From positions 1 to 64,000 of the forward strand of contig CANFSP010000003.1 in NCBI GenBank assembly GCA_947449765.1: a DNA stretch of 64,000 bases, written 5' to 3'. The number at the start of each line of letters is the position of its first letter. The first letter of the stretch is position 1. Below, piece by piece: positions 18,715 through 27,223 of the stretch. The notes under the pieces were generated by a model. The model was not told the origin of the DNA and ran no database searches. It worked only from the letters and a program-made list of their open reading frames with translations. The stretch is from Actinomycetota bacterium (lineage in GTDB: Bacteria; Actinomycetota; Actinomycetes; Actinomycetales; Microbacteriaceae). Both the position numbers and the translations under genes were made by a program.

Positions 18715-20913
18715 CTAATCGTCGAGTAGTTCTGCTTCGATGAACGGATCCTCGTCACCCGCGTCGAACACCACGCGGTGCTCATCTGCGGTGACGGTCA
18801 GTGCATCATCGACGAGGTCGACACGGACGAGATCCCCGTCCCGTATCTCGCCCGCGAGTAGTGACTTGGCTAGGCGGTCATCAATCTCGTGTTGCATGAG
18901 TCGGCGAAGTGGTCGAGCCCCGTAAATGGGGTCGTAGCCTCGTTCGGCCAACCACAGCCGAGCCGATGGCGTCACCGCGAGCTCGAGGCGACGCTCCGAA
19001 AGACGAGCCTGCAGACGATCGATGTAGAGCTCCACGATGGAACCCAGGTCTTCACGCGTGAGGGGCGAGAACACGACGATGTCATCGAGACGGTTGACAA
19101 ACTCTGGTTTGAATGCCTGTCGCACCACCTCATTCACCGCACGCTCCTTGTCGTCCCACGACAAGTCGGGATCGACGAGAAATTGACTGCCCAAATTCGA
19201 GGTCAAAATGAGGATGACGTTTCGGAAATCCACGGTTCGACCTTGACCATCCGTCAAGCGGCCGTCGTCGAGCACCTGGAGCAAGACGTCGAACACTTCG
19301 GGATGCGCCTTTTCGACCTCATCAAGTAGCACCACAGAATAGGGTCGGCGTCGAACTGCTTCGGTGAGCTGTCCACCCGCTTCATAACCGATGTACCCGG
19401 GAGGGGCACCAACGAGTCGCGACACGGAGTGCTTTTCGCCGTATTCACTCATGTCGATGCGAATCATTGCTTTTTCGTCATCGAAGAGGAAATCAGCAAG
19501 CGCCTTGGCGAGCTCGGTTTTGCCCACGCCAGTGGGACCCAGGAAGAGGAACGATCCGGTGGGGCGCTGCGGGTCACTAATGCCCGCACGCGAACGACGC
19601 ACCGACTCAGCGACGGCGTTGACTGCACGCTTTTGGCCGATCAGGCGCTTGGCGATCTCGTTTTCGAGGTTAAGTAGTTTCTCGGTTTCACCCTGAGTGA
19701 GTTTGTCCACCGGAATGCCCGTCCATGCCGCGATAACACCGGCTATGTCACTGCTGGTCACCTGGTCATTGACCATGCGGTCCTCAGACTGCTCTGCCGT
19801 TTCAGCAGCTTTGAGTTCTTGTTCCAGTTGTGGAATGTCACCGTAGAGTAGTCGGCTCGCTTTCTCAAGGTTGCCCTCGCGCTGCAAGCGTTCCGCTTGA
19901 ATTCGTGCGGCGTCAAGCTGCGTCTTGAGGTCACCGACGCGGTTGAGCGCATCACGCTCGATTTTCCAACGCGCTTCGAGTTCAGCGAGCTTGGTCTCGC
20001 GTGTCGCCATATCCTCACGCAACTTGCCGAGGCGCTCCTTGGATGCGTCGTCTTTCTCTTTTTTGAGAGCGAACTCTTCGAGCTTGAGACGCTCCACACT
20101 GCGACGAAGTTCGTCGATTTCGACTGGCGCCGAGTCGATCTCCATGCGCAGACGACTGGCCGCTTCGTCAATCAGGTCGATGGCCTTATCGGGTAGCTGA
20201 CGCGACGTGATGTACCTGTTGCTCAGCGACGCCGCGGCAACCAAAGCATTGTCGGCAATGGCGACCTTGTGGTGTGCTTCGTATCGTTCTTTCAACCCGC
20301 GAAGAATGGCCACCGTGTCTTCGACGCTGGGTTCACCAACGTAGACCTGCTGGAAGCGGCGTTCGAGAGCGGCGTCTTTTTCAATGAATTCTCGATATTC
20401 GTCGAGGGTAGTGGCACCAATGAGTCGCAGCTCCCCGCGAGCGAGCATGGGTTTGAGCATGTTTGCCGCAGCGACGGAGCCCTCACCGCCGCCGGCACCC
20501 ATCAGGGTGTGAAGTTCGTCGATAAAGGTGATGATCTGACCGTCAGCCGCATTAATTTCGGCAATGACGGCCTTGAGCCGCTCTTCAAACTGACCTCGAT
20601 ACATCGCTCCTGCGACCATGGCACTGATATCGAGCGAGACGAGCTGCTTGTTTTTGAGGCTGTCGGGAACGTCACCGGCAACAATTCGTTGCGCGAGCCC
20701 TTCAACGACGGCCGTCTTTCCGACGCCGGGTTCTCCAATGAGAACCGGATTGTTCTTGGTTCGCCGTGTCAGCACCTGACTTACGCGGCGAATTTCTGCA
20801 TCACGACCAATGACGGGATCGAGCTTGCCGCTCTTCGCAATGTCGGTGAGGTTGATGCCGAATTGTTCGAGCGCGCTCTTCTGTTCGTCTTGTTGCGGCC
20901 CTTGAGGTTGCAT
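18715..20913 (-). CDS. clpB: ClpB-type disaggregase lacking the N-domain
   Basis: A 732-residue Hsp100 AAA+ disaggregase that works with DnaK to solubilise aggregated protein. The first AAA module has Walker A GEPGVGKT and IIFIDELH-like Walker B, then a long charged middle coiled coil (about residues 370-500) typical of ClpB, then the second AAA module with [12 protein letters not shown] and [14 protein letters not shown]. The Clp N-terminal repeat domain (about 145 residues) is missing, as in the short ClpB isoform. I chose ATG 20913 because AGGAG lies 8 bases upstream; ATG 20946 has no ribosome-binding site. Transcription is governed by the HAIR and CIRCE sites just upstream. Confidence 0.95.
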
Positions 20914-20992
20914 AGGTTGTTCTCCTGAAATGTTCGTATCGCCCACGTTCGCGATGAGACATCGGATGTCCGCCGAGATGCTCCTTCACAAA

Positions 20993-21013
20993 CTTGAGTC
21001 GATGTGACTCAAG
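20993..21013. promoter_or_regulatory. HspR-binding HAIR element upstream of clpB
   Basis: CTTGAGT-N7-ACTCAAG is an exact match to the HAIR consensus; the palindrome extends one base further on each side. It lies about 80 bases before the clpB start. hspR itself is 2.1 kb away in this window. Confidence 0.93.
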
Positions 21014-21014
21014 T

Positions 21015-21041
21015 TTAGCACTCTTATGCGTTGAGTGCTAG
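21015..21041. promoter_or_regulatory. HrcA-binding CIRCE element upstream of clpB
   Basis: TTAGCACTC-N9-GAGTGCTAG matches the CIRCE consensus (TTAGCACTC-N9-GAGTGCTAA) at 17 of 18 arm positions. It starts one base after the HAIR element and its far arm contains the stop codon of the rlmG-like gene (21038-21040). Confidence 0.9.
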
Positions 21042-22180
21042 TGCCGAGTAGAGGCGCTGACGGTGAACTTGGGCGTACGGATGACGTCGCGAGTTGGCCC
21101 GACTAACCGTTCGAGAATGGGTCCGTATTTCAAGTGTCGGTTTGCCACAACCCACAGCTCGCCGCCCGACGAGAGTACGCGGGCCGCATCCTCAAAGAGT
21201 CGGATGCTCGTGTCCGAGTGCACCGCAGCACCCGAGTGAAACGGCGGATTGAAGAGAATCAGGTCCGCGCTCGAGTCGGGCTGGCTATGCAAGGCGTCAT
21301 CGCGGACGACCAACACGCGATCCGTGAGGTTATTCGCTTCGACCGTGGCTCGGGTTGACAGCACCGCGGCTTCGGACTGATCGCTGGCGATAACTGTCGC
21401 CCGCGGGCGAAGGCGGGCGATGGAGACGGCGAGAACACCGGAACCACAGCCGAAATCGATAATCCGGGTTGCGGAAGCCGAGGTCTGGTCCAATACAGCG
21501 AGTAATTCGCGGGTACCAATATCGAGGTTGGTGCCCGCGAACACCCCAGGGTGAGCCACAATCGTCATGTCGAGCATGTCGTAGCGCTTTGACTTGGGCC
21601 AGGCGTCGAGACCTTCGTGGGCAGCCTCAACCAGCGGACCGCGAGCGCGCAAGGCGCGACTTTTTTGCACCGCGAGACTGGCAATCACCGAGCTGAAGTA
21701 TCGCTTCATGACCTCGTTCATGCCGAGAGTCATGTGCTTGATTCGACCTGCGGCGATCACGATGACATCGTCGGCGCAGTGGGCAGCCACGAGCGCGCTC
21801 CAGTGGTCAAGCTGGTCGAGCGACCGGGGCAAGCGCATGGCGACAATCCGAGCACCCGACACGAGTTCCGGCCGTAGCTCGTGATTCGTAAAACCGGTGA
21901 GACCCGAGTCCGCTGCGTTGTGTGCGAGGGCGAGCTCCGCGGAACGGGCATCCTGATGAACCCGAACTTCCTGAAATCCAAGCTCCGCGATGGCCCCGAG
22001 CGTGATTGCGCCGAAGTTATCTCCGATGACCACGAGTGTGCCGTCTCGCAGTGAGGAGTCAGCTCGCACTTCGTGTTCGAGCTCAGAAAGAATCAGCCGA
22101 TCGGCGGCGTCCACCGCGACGAGGTCGGGAGCTTCGAGGTCTGGCCAGCGACGCAGACCGTCGAAAGAAAAGTTGGTCAC
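21038..22180 (-). CDS. RlmG/RsmC-type rRNA guanine-N2 methyltransferase
   Basis: A 380-residue class I SAM methyltransferase with the two-domain layout of RlmG/RsmC: a degenerate N-terminal methyltransferase-like domain for RNA binding (about 1-195) and a catalytic C-terminal domain with IIDFGCGSGVLAVS (SAM loop, about 240-253) and the catalytic NPPFHSG. E. coli RlmG (23S G1835) has nearly the same length, so that assignment is favoured over RsmC. GTG 22180 follows TAGTCT by 6 bases (leaderless). Its 3' end overlaps the CIRCE element of clpB. Confidence 0.85.
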   Translation of the reverse strand: MTNFSFDGLRRWPDLEAPDLVAVDAADRLILSELEHEVRADSSLRDGTLVVIGDNFGAITLGAIAELGFQEVRVHQDARSAELALAHNAADSGLTGFTNHELRPELVSGARIVAMRLPRSLDQLDHWSALVAAHCADDVIVIAAGRIKHMTLGMNEVMKRYFSSVIASLAVQKSRALRARGPLVEAAHEGLDAWPKSKRYDMLDMTIVAHPGVFAGTNLDIGTRELLAVLDQTSASATRIIDFGCGSGVLAVSIARLRPRATVIASDQSEAAVLSTRATVEANNLTDRVLVVRDDALHSQPDSSADLILFNPPFHSGAAVHSDTSIRLFEDAARVLSSGGELWVVANRHLKYGPILERLVGPTRDVIRTPKFTVSASTRH

Positions 22181-22345: not shown

Positions 22346-23113
22346 ATGCGCTTTGTTGACCTCTCGATGCCCCTCGATGATGTGGTTCCCGTAGACCCGC
22401 CGTTCTTGCGCCCCACGATTGAGTACAAGGACCACATCGGTGGGCTCAAAGACATGTACGCAATGTACGGAATCCTCCCGGAGCAGCTTCCCGACGGTCA
22501 AGGCCTAGCGGCAGAAACCGTGACCATCACGACTCACTCGGGGACACACGTTGATGCGCCGTGGCACTATCACCCCACAATGAATAACGGCGAAAAAGCA
22601 TGGACCATCGATGAGGTTCCGCTGGACTGGTTTTTTCGTCCAGGCGTGAAGCTCGACCTTCGTCACCTGCCCAATGGTCACCTCGTCATGCCGGACGATA
22701 TTGATGAGGCGCTGTCGAAGATTGGTTATACGCTAGCCCCACTCGACATCGTGCTGTTCAACACGGTTGCGGCCGCCGCCTACGGACGTGACGACTACGT
22801 TGACACCGGGATAGGTTTTGGGCGTGCAGCCACTCTCCACCTCACCAATCAGGGTGTGCGTGTCGTCGGTACCGATGCGTGGGGGTGGGATCTGCCGATC
22901 CCCATCAACCGAAAAAACTTCGAAGCGACCGGGGATCCCTCAATCGTGTGGGAAGGGCACAAGGCGGGTGCCGAGGTCGGGTACTGCCAGATCGAGAAGC
23001 TCCAACACCTCGACCAGCTGCCCGCCACCGGTTTTACCGTGGCCTGCTTTCCCGCCAAAGTTCGCGGGGCTTCTGCCGGGTGGACCCGCGCAGTAGCCAT
23101 TTTCGAGGACTGA
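22346..23113 (+). CDS. Cyclase family protein (kynurenine formamidase-like metal hydrolase)
   Basis: A 255-residue member of the cyclase/formamidase family (PF04199 type). The metal-binding signature HSGTHVDAPWHY is at about residues 66-77, and GTDAWGWD plus a C-terminal hydrophobic core follow the family pattern. Characterised members hydrolyse N-formylkynurenine or similar amides, or isatin. The specific substrate here is unknown and no tryptophan-degradation gene is nearby. AAGGAG stands 6 bases before the ATG. A stem-loop lies in the preceding leader (22282-22322). Confidence 0.85.
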   Translation: MRFVDLSMPLDDVVPVDPPFLRPTIEYKDHIGGLKDMYAMYGILPEQLPDGQGLAAETVTITTHSGTHVDAPWHYHPTMNNGEKAWTIDEVPLDWFFRPGVKLDLRHLPNGHLVMPDDIDEALSKIGYTLAPLDIVLFNTVAAAAYGRDDYVDTGIGFGRAATLHLTNQGVRVVGTDAWGWDLPIPINRKNFEATGDPSIVWEGHKAGAEVGYCQIEKLQHLDQLPATGFTVACFPAKVRGASAGWTRAVAIFED

Positions 23114-23115
23114 CG

Positions 23116-23541
23116 CTAGCGATTACCGAACGGTCGCCACACCACAATCTCGGTGTGTTTGCGCGTGCGGGTTCCTGCACGCAGCCGTTCGACTTCGCCG
23201 CCAGAACCAGCGGCGAAAACGCGCCGGCCCGGCTGAGCAAGCACGGCTTCGGCGAGCGCAGACTCGAGCTCACGCACACGGGCGGCGAGAGCATCCACCT
23301 GATTCTCCAGCTCGATCACTCGTCTGATTCCCTCGAGACTGACTCCCTCGGCACTCAGTTTTGCTACCTCGCGCAGTTGCATCACATCACGCATGGAATA
23401 GCGGCGGGACTGCCCTGCGGTTCTCTTGGCCTGAACCAGTCCGAGACGGTCGTACTGTCGCAGAGTTTGGGCGTGTAAGCCGGCTAATTCGGCTGCCATG
23501 GACACGGGAAATATCGGCGCGTACTCATCCATACTGGTCAT
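23116..23541 (-). CDS. hspR: Heat-shock repressor HspR (MerR family)
   Basis: A 141-residue MerR-type repressor, last gene of the dnaK operon. The helix-turn-helix reads MAAELAGLHAQTLRQYDRLGLV, followed by the SRRYSMRDV wing and a coiled coil (about residues 70-95). The C-terminal tail is basic. HspR is known to bind HAIR sequences with DnaK as co-repressor; HAIR-type sites are present here in front of both clpB and dnaK. GGAGAG precedes ATG 23541. It ends 2 bases from the convergent cyclase stop. Confidence 0.95.
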   Translation of the reverse strand: MTSMDEYAPIFPVSMAAELAGLHAQTLRQYDRLGLVQAKRTAGQSRRYSMRDVMQLREVAKLSAEGVSLEGIRRVIELENQVDALAARVRELESALAEAVLAQPGRRVFAAGSGGEVERLRAGTRTRKHTEIVVWRPFGNR

Positions 23542-23587: not shown

Positions 23588-24547
23588 CTATCGCCGAGCT
23601 TTCGCGATGAGATCAGCACGCGGATTTTCCTTCGGTGCGACCTCCGCAAAAGCGTTAAGTGCCGCGGTAGCCTGATCATCAAGATGGCTGGGAACGGCAA
23701 TCTGCACGACGGCAAGCAGGTCTCCCTGAGTTTTAGCCGTCTTCACACCTCGCCCCTTGACCCGAAGGACGCGACCGGCTGGAGTTCCCGGCGTGACCTT
23801 GAGCTTGACTGTTTCGCCGTCGAGGGTGGGCACCTCAATCGTCGCGCCCAGAGTTGCCTCGACAAAGGTGACGGGAACATTCACGCGAATGTTCGCGCCT
23901 TCGCGCTCAAACACGGGGTGCTTTGTGACGTGGACCTCGAGCACAATGTCTCCAGGCTGACCACCATCGGGGCTGGGGTGTCCCTTGCCACGAACGCGAA
24001 TCTTTTGCCCGTCATTCACTCCGGCAGGAATCTTGACGTTGACACGGCCCGTCGGACCAGTGAGTGACATCGTTTCACCGTTGACCGCCTCAAAGAAGTC
24101 GACCGTGACGCTCGAAACGACATCCTGACCCTTGCTCGGACCGCCGTAGCCACGGAATCCACCACTGGGCCGGCCAAAGTTTCCTCCGCCAAAGAGATTT
24201 CCAAAAACGTCCGAGAAGTCGGCTTGCTGCGAGCCACCGCCGAAGAACCCGCTGTAGGCGTCACTGAATCCGCCTTGCCCGCCGGGTCCGCCAGCAGTAA
24301 ATCTCGCGCCCGAGCCCATTGCGCGGATTTGATCGTATTCTTGCCGCTGAGTCTTGTCAGAAAGCACCGAGTAGGCCTCGCTGATTTCCTTGAACTTCGC
24401 CTCTGCTGCCGCATTTCCCGGATTGGAGTCCGGGTGGTACTTGCGTGCGAGCTTGCGGTAGACCTTTTTGAGTTCTTCGTCAGATACGTCCTTGGAGACG
24501 CCGAGCGTCTTGTAAAAGTCTTTTTCAAACCAATCTTGACTAGCCAT
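23588..24547 (-). CDS. dnaJ: DnaJ-type co-chaperone without zinc finger
   Basis: A 319-residue Hsp40. The J domain (residues about 9-75) carries the catalytic HPD in KYHPDSNPG, then a Gly/Phe-rich linker (80-135) and the C-terminal peptide-binding domains. The CxxCxGxG zinc-finger repeats of classical DnaJ are absent; the protein contains no cysteine, so it is CbpA-like in domain terms although it occupies the dnaJ slot of the operon. A strong AAAGGAGG precedes the ATG. It stimulates DnaK ATPase and delivers substrates. Confidence 0.93.
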   Translation of the reverse strand: MASQDWFEKDFYKTLGVSKDVSDEELKKVYRKLARKYHPDSNPGNAAAEAKFKEISEAYSVLSDKTQRQEYDQIRAMGSGARFTAGGPGGQGGFSDAYSGFFGGGSQQADFSDVFGNLFGGGNFGRPSGGFRGYGGPSKGQDVVSSVTVDFFEAVNGETMSLTGPTGRVNVKIPAGVNDGQKIRVRGKGHPSPDGGQPGDIVLEVHVTKHPVFEREGANIRVNVPVTFVEATLGATIEVPTLDGETVKLKVTPGTPAGRVLRVKGRGVKTAKTQGDLLAVVQIAVPSHLDDQATAALNAFAEVAPKENPRADLIAKARR

Positions 24548-24617: not shown

Positions 24618-25202
24618 CTAGCCCTCAGCGGGTGTCTGAACGACTACTTTCGCCGCACGAACCTGGGTTGAACCAATCTGGTATCCCACTTCGACGACAT
24701 CCAGAATGGTGGGAGCAGAAACCTCGGCTGAGGGCTGCTGCACAATCGCCTCGTGCAGGTTGGGGTCAAAGGCATCACCCACCGCACCATATGCACTCAG
24801 TCCCATTCGCTCCACCACGGCGCGGAGCTTGGATGCGATTGCACCCAGCGGGCTCCCTTCGACGAGGTCGCCGTGCTTGTCAGCCCGATCGATGTCATCG
24901 AGTACCGGCAACAGAAGGCGGACAGTGTCGCCAATCACGCGTTCGCGTTCCACCTCGCGGTTCGCCTCGGTGCGCTTGCGATAGTTGGCGTATTCCGCAG
25001 TGACCCGCTGCAGGTCAGCAAGTCGCTCGGCAGCAAGATCATCCGCCGCCTTGTCAAGAAAGGCGAGGTCAGTGTCATCGAGCGATGTTTCGACGTCGGC
25101 ATCTTCAAGAGACTCGCCGCTGACCTCGTAGCCCGGGTCTTCCACAAAGTCCGGTTCAGGGGAGCCCTGCGGCTCCCCTTCCGGTGCATTCTTCTCAGTC
25201 AT
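24618..25202 (-). CDS. grpE: Nucleotide exchange factor GrpE
   Basis: A 194-residue co-chaperone that releases ADP from DnaK. An acidic, probably disordered N-terminus (1-45) is followed by a long dimerisation helix (ADLQRVTAEYANYRKRTEANREVE) and the C-terminal beta wing (LHEAIVQQPS...VVEVGYQIG...VRAAKVVV). ATG 25202 is 2 bases after the dnaK stop; 70 bases separate it from dnaJ. Confidence 0.96.
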   Translation of the reverse strand: MTEKNAPEGEPQGSPEPDFVEDPGYEVSGESLEDADVETSLDDTDLAFLDKAADDLAAERLADLQRVTAEYANYRKRTEANREVERERVIGDTVRLLLPVLDDIDRADKHGDLVEGSPLGAIASKLRAVVERMGLSAYGAVGDAFDPNLHEAIVQQPSAEVSAPTILDVVEVGYQIGSTQVRAAKVVVQTPAEG

Positions 25203-27148: not shown

Positions 27149-27169
27149 CTTGCGTCGTGTTGACTCAAG
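27149..27169. promoter_or_regulatory. HAIR-like HspR site 1 upstream of dnaK
   Basis: CTTGCGT-N7-ACTCAAG differs from the HAIR consensus at one arm position and has the correct 7-base spacer. It is 97 bases upstream of the dnaK ATG. Confidence 0.85.
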
Positions 27170-27202
27170 TTTGCCAGCCTGTGGATAACTTGTCAAGTCG
27201 AA

Positions 27203-27223
27203 CTTGATAAGACTCGACTCAAG
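27203..27223. promoter_or_regulatory. HAIR-like HspR site 2 between dnaK and the UMF1 transporter
   Basis: CTTGATA-N7-ACTCAAG keeps one perfect arm and a two-mismatch second arm with the 7-base spacer. An additional palindrome CTTGTCAAG lies just beside it at 27189-27197. The site is 66 bases from the divergent UMF1 gene, so it could affect both directions. Confidence 0.7.

Follow-up and report, generated by a model that had tools for sequence, protein, structure and literature searches.

Genes and operators at the clpB locus

The window, by which we mean the whole 64,000-nucleotide stretch of DNA analysed, encodes a disaggregase gene (clpB), an rlmG/rsmC-like methyltransferase gene and part of the DnaK chaperone system, and carries two heat-shock operators directly upstream of clpB (Table 1). 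The operators were located with the patterns CTTGAGT-N7-ACTCAAG for HAIR, the HspR site, and TTAGCACTC-N9-GAGTGCTAA for CIRCE, the HrcA site. The HAIR operator, CTTGAGT-CGATGTG-ACTCAAG (plus strand CTTGAGTCGATGTGACTCAAG), agrees with its pattern at every position, and the CIRCE operator, TTAGCACTC-TTATGCGTT-GAGTGCTAG (plus strand TTAGCACTCTTATGCGTTGAGTGCTAG), departs from its pattern at one of 18 positions. A single base, 21014, separates the two in a stack of 49 bp. The earlier note, which had described a perfect HspR site and a near-perfect HrcA site lying back to back, was thus accurate in these respects. In the orientation of clpB, the order is the end of rlmG, CIRCE, HAIR, about 80 nt and the clpB start codon. 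The centres of the operators are 25 bp, or approximately 2.4 helical turns, apart, and the HAIR palindrome can be extended to AAACTTGAGT-N7-ACTCAAGTTT (20990-21016); this longer palindrome and CIRCE have 2 bp in common.

The stop codon of the rlmG-like gene was also said to fall within a CIRCE arm, and indeed it does. The mutual constraint between operator and coding sequence that was proposed on this basis holds for four bases, namely the wobble position of the final codon and the stop codon itself, but not beyond them.

Shuffled versions of the window yielded 0.01 CIRCE matches on average at up to three mismatches, and at the same threshold the whole genome contains five sites, versus none for a reversed control pattern. 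The HAIR pattern at up to three mismatches carries no significance by itself; the clpB site is the sole HAIR of the genome without a mismatch. The mismatched base of the clpB CIRCE is its outermost one (C in the clpB orientation), and the same base is the commonest at that position of the family promoter described below.

Table 1. Features of the clpB region and the neighbouring dnaK cluster (positions in the window)
Feature	Position	Strand	Remarks
clpB	18715-20913	-	disaggregase without N-terminal domain; start ATG 20913
Predicted clpB 5' leader	20914-21005	-	putative start site near 21005, inside HAIR, judged from the -10 position
HAIR operator (HspR site)	20993-21013		pattern match, 0 mismatches
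Predicted -10, TAAACT	21012-21017	-	end of CIRCE (TAA) and start of HAIR (CT); register with the family promoter
CIRCE operator (HrcA site)	21015-21041		pattern match, 1 mismatch in 18
Predicted -35, CTAGCA	21036-21041	-	in the CIRCE arm next to rlmG; register with CTGGCG of 72 promoters
rlmG/rsmC-like methyltransferase gene	21038-22180	-	TAG stop 21038-21040 in CIRCE arm
Cyclase-family gene	22346-23113	+	between hspR and rlmG-clpB, on the strand opposite to both
hspR	23116-23541	-	HAIR-binding repressor; NCBIfam HspR above cut-off
dnaJ	23588-24547	-	dnaK-grpE-dnaJ-hspR cluster
grpE	24618-25202	-	dnaK-grpE-dnaJ-hspR cluster
Imperfect HAIR before dnaK	27149-27169		1 mismatch
Imperfect HAIR before dnaK	27203-27223		2 mismatches

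The most likely start of ClpB is the ATG given in Table 1, which has AGGAG close upstream; the GTG at 20946, taken from a mechanical list of open reading frames, is a less likely start. The match of the protein to the ClpB profile begins at position 147 of 853, such that the N-terminal domain is missing. Open reading frames of clpB in the sampled family members are mostly alike in length (about 710-770 aa), and a ClpB devoid of this domain therefore looks like a family-wide trait.

Repressor genes and operator sets of the genome

Both repressors are encoded in the genome, HspR within the window and HrcA elsewhere. The earlier note had made its proposal of joint control depend on the presence of hrcA, and the search that it called for found the gene. 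Besides the clpB site, CIRCE sites with up to three mismatches occur before groEL (two), groES (one) and hrcA (one), and the mismatch count at clpB lies within the range of these sites. The two groEL copies form a tandem pair with 7 bases between them, the copy nearer groEL being perfect (contig C7:81536-81596 of the same genome). HAIR sites are found at dnaK (two) and at clpB. With HAIR in its promoter and hspR in the genome, clpB would be assigned to an HspR/HAIR regulon; CIRCE in the promoter, together with an encoded HrcA and CIRCE at groE, would likewise place it in an HrcA/CIRCE regulon, although CIRCE before clpB is not kept in close relatives.

A core promoter common to the family

The regions upstream of clpB were taken from family genomes and, with the addition of two carriers found by pattern (L144 and L136), 106 of them were usable. 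HAIR before clpB is usual in the Microbacteriaceae: it occurs with up to two mismatches in 75 of the 106 regions and with up to three in 80. When 72 Microbacteriaceae clpB promoters bearing HAIR only were aligned on this operator, a common core, CTGGCG-N18-TAAACT, emerged at a fixed offset, CTGGCG occupying positions -28 to -23 and TAAACT positions -4 to +1 relative to HAIR, the -10 element thus running into the operator. At least four of the six -35 bases are matched in 51% of the clpB promoters, versus 7% in shuffles. Since this promoter was derived without the window sequence, it provides an independent map of the window site. In its register, the window CIRCE occupies exactly -28 to -2, and the CIRCE sites of L144 and L136 occupy the same promoter positions. 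The one-base spacing of the operators is explained by the -10 element that CIRCE and HAIR have in common.

A scan with the standard sigma-70 consensus detected no promoter at the site, where the -35 is weak; the promoter became visible only once the relatives were aligned. The dnaK promoter has a TTGACA-like -35 between its two HAIR sites (27149-27223), and its -10 (CAAACT) enters the HAIR nearer dnaK in the same manner as at clpB. A structured clpB leader was considered and rejected, as shuffled sequences fold just as well as the predicted one (z = 0.00); the leader also gave no match to an Rfam family.

Because the promoter itself is similar to CIRCE in the outer bases of the latter, the site might be a relic or might have arisen by chance from the -35 and -10 elements, with HAIR alone being functional at clpB. 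HAIR without CIRCE is the norm before clpB in the family, CIRCE is rare there, and both congeners of the window genome are without it. However, the inner arms of CIRCE (GCACTC and GAGTGC) lie outside the promoter consensus and are nonetheless perfect in the window, shuffled clpB upstream regions produced no CIRCE with up to three mismatches in 2120 trials, and its number of mismatches falls among those of the operators that the same genome has at groEL, groES and hrcA. We therefore consider a non-functional CIRCE improbable.

Distribution and origin of CIRCE at clpB

CIRCE before clpB was found in three genomes: the window genome, Arenivirga flava (G146; loci L128/L144) and an uncultured actinobacterium (L136). 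Among the genomes sampled without selection by pattern, only the window genome carries it. Pairs of exact HAIR and CIRCE cores occur in 53 of 400 family genomes, of which only the window genome and A. flava have a 5-base gap between the cores. Apart from the window, no close HAIR/CIRCE stack was detected in 396 genomes of the order (one match with three mismatches lacked an intact pair) or in 396 genomes of the phylum. HAIR and CIRCE are each known; their compact pairing at clpB is rare.

On the ClpB tree the three carriers occupy separate places, requiring three changes, and a single origin was rejected when the carriers were constrained to one clade (p-AU 3e-33, for a group named after the trait had been seen). 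This suggests a repeated origin of the clpB CIRCE over one inheritance, on a gene tree by which gain and loss are not separable. A second genome of the genus Arenivirga (G084; L251) has HAIR before clpB and no CIRCE, and both congeners of the window genome (G001 and G002) have neither operator at this position.

Loss of the CIRCE arms in close relatives had been named beforehand as evidence against joint control of clpB by HspR and HrcA, and such absence is what the congeners display. The proposal is thus borne out by inference, from the two repressors, the other CIRCE sites at groEL, groES and hrcA, and the position of both operators on the core promoter, but not by conservation, CIRCE being absent before clpB in both congeners and in nearly all other family members. 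We read the absence of both operators in the congeners as evolutionary lability rather than as a sign of a spurious site in the window; in one congener, clpB immediately follows hspR-rlmG.

Linkage of clpB to hspR and rlmG

That congener is G002, in which the three genes lie on the same strand; in G001, hspR is on a different contig from clpB, and in the window the opposite-strand cyclase gene breaks the hspR-rlmG linkage. Family-wide, clpB lies right behind hspR in 12 of 26 loci without HAIR versus 0 of 80 with HAIR (Fisher p 4e-9), and behind hspR or rlmG in 20 of 26 versus 5 of 80 (p 4e-12), in counts made by hand for which most HAIR-bearing regions were read over only about 600 bp upstream. 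The HAIR-less loci mostly follow hspR or hspR-rlmG (L314, L316-L321, L325-L327, L332, L333, L335-L337, L339, L341 and L342), as if clpB were joined to the dnaK operon; clpB located elsewhere carries HAIR. The simplest reading is that clpB would either receive read-through transcription from the dnaK operon or have its own repressor-bound promoter. This rule is not strict, since L136 combines the hspR-rlmG-clpB order with the operators.

In the window, rlmG and clpB share a strand, and no minus-strand terminator-like site was found between them. Together with the frequent position of clpB behind hspR or rlmG in relatives without HAIR, this is consistent with a clpB that is mainly read through from rlmG, the stack serving only as a roadblock or minor promoter. 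Such an arrangement is nevertheless very unlikely, considering that the promoter at HAIR is family-wide and that here an opposite-strand gene severs rlmG-clpB from the dnaK-hspR cluster.

Proposed two-repressor control of clpB

We propose, with a probability of roughly 0.7, that clpB is transcribed separately and has the 49-bp stack as its regulated core promoter, and that full expression of the gene would need relief of both HrcA and HspR. Both operators, both repressor genes, the remaining operator sets and the register with the family-wide promoter are read directly from the sequence. From these we infer repressor binding, use of the promoter, the logic of relief and a transcript that begins near 21005, as follows. 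RNA polymerase would engage the predicted -35 and -10 elements. HrcA bound to CIRCE would cover the promoter from the -35 through the beginning of the -10, and HspR bound to HAIR would cover the rest of the -10 along with the start site. Either repressor alone would block the polymerase, such that full clpB expression would require relief of both; probably, both must release before clpB comes on. The activity of HrcA is linked to GroEL. HspR would act with DnaK as its co-repressor, in keeping with the known DnaK-HspR link (PMC8223512), and the DnaK/HspR and GroEL/HrcA circuits would thereby be joined at the disaggregase.

Occupancy of both sites at once is plausible with centres 25 bp apart. 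Conversely, the one-base spacing, the 2-bp overlap of the extended HAIR with CIRCE, and a separation by which the proteins would lie on different faces of the helix could favour competition, in which adjoining sites bar joint binding and clpB follows whichever repressor is present. We regard competition as unlikely, since HspR and HrcA bind cooperatively in Campylobacter jejuni and independently in Helicobacter pylori, and neither species shows competition (PMC7464140).

Pairs of HAIR and CIRCE at hsp20

GTDB genomes were scanned for HAIR cores lying no more than 30 bp from a CIRCE core, which yielded at least 117 stretches. Among the matches listed, the neighbouring gene is hsp20 in 111 of 117 loci; 107 of these 111 genes are on the HAIR side, and the gap is nearly always 13-18 bases. 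The clpB gene is the neighbour in two of the matches listed (L128 and L136), both with the 5-base gap seen in the window. The hsp20 pairs are common in Microbacteriaceae, Micrococcaceae and some other actinobacteria (L020-L134; e.g., L021 6757-6811 and L053 7349-7402).

In 110 loci with gaps of 10-18 bases, nearly all of them at hsp20, the -35 supplied by CIRCE reads [TC]T[GA]GCA, and the -10 mostly reads TAANNT. Judged from these motifs, the doubling of CIRCE as a core promoter looks general in these actinobacteria. We give even odds to a broader proposal: that CIRCE is here the promoter itself, its arms providing the -35 and the start of the -10, so that few changes would add HrcA control to an HspR promoter, and that a compact two-repressor gate arose in this way at clpB in three lineages independently of one another, and also widely at hsp20. 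The resemblance of the outer CIRCE bases to -35 and -10 elements would offer a simple structural reason for the repeated rise of double operators.

The window genome and its two congeners yielded no Hsp20 gene; family-wide, 66 of 110 genomes have one and 44 do not. The idea that CIRCE moved to clpB upon loss of hsp20 is not supported: the window genome and A. flava are without hsp20, but so are both congeners and the 44 family genomes, and the L136 genome has hsp20.

Comparison with known systems

Control of clpB by HspR is established in the actinobacteria Streptomyces, M. tuberculosis and Bifidobacterium, which, like the window genome, have HAIR before clpB and a dnaK operon that ends with hspR (PMC2687793, PMC8223512, PMC9004370). 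The window adds a CIRCE on the -35 and -10, whereas these papers give HspR, not HrcA, as the regulator of clpB. In Mycoplasma gallisepticum, by comparison, an HrcA operator precedes clpB and no HAIR is described, HrcA being the only regulator of known mechanism in that species (PMC4245973).

Promoters under dual HspR and HrcA control are known from C. jejuni and H. pylori, at groESL and the hrcA operon; in C. jejuni the two repressors interact, with cooperative binding to sites spaced 11-27 bp from each other, and clpB is controlled by HspR alone (PMC7464140). As proposed for the window, two repressors serve one heat-shock promoter and the HrcA site lies on the core promoter (PMC7464140). The epsilonproteobacterial HspR site, however, is upstream of the core promoter, whereas HAIR in the window comes after CIRCE, on its downstream side, where it covers the -10 and start region, and clpB is the gene concerned. 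The stack may work like the epsilonproteobacterial dual type though it is built differently. A nearer counterpart is provided by the hsp20 pairs of Microbacteriaceae and Micrococcaceae, in which CIRCE likewise doubles as -35 and -10 and is followed by HAIR, with the gene on the HAIR side; unlike the window, their cores are mostly 13-18 rather than 5 bases apart and the gene is hsp20.

No description of HAIR with CIRCE at clpB or hsp20 in these actinobacteria was found among the open-access papers searched. Natural promoters of hsp20 and clpB are numerous, some bearing CIRCE and others lacking it, and offer test material for the logic of two-repressor gates and for the gain and loss of operators. 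A contig labelled uncultured Arcobacter, of a different phylum, bears HAIR and CIRCE with a gap of 17 before groES (L054 919-975).
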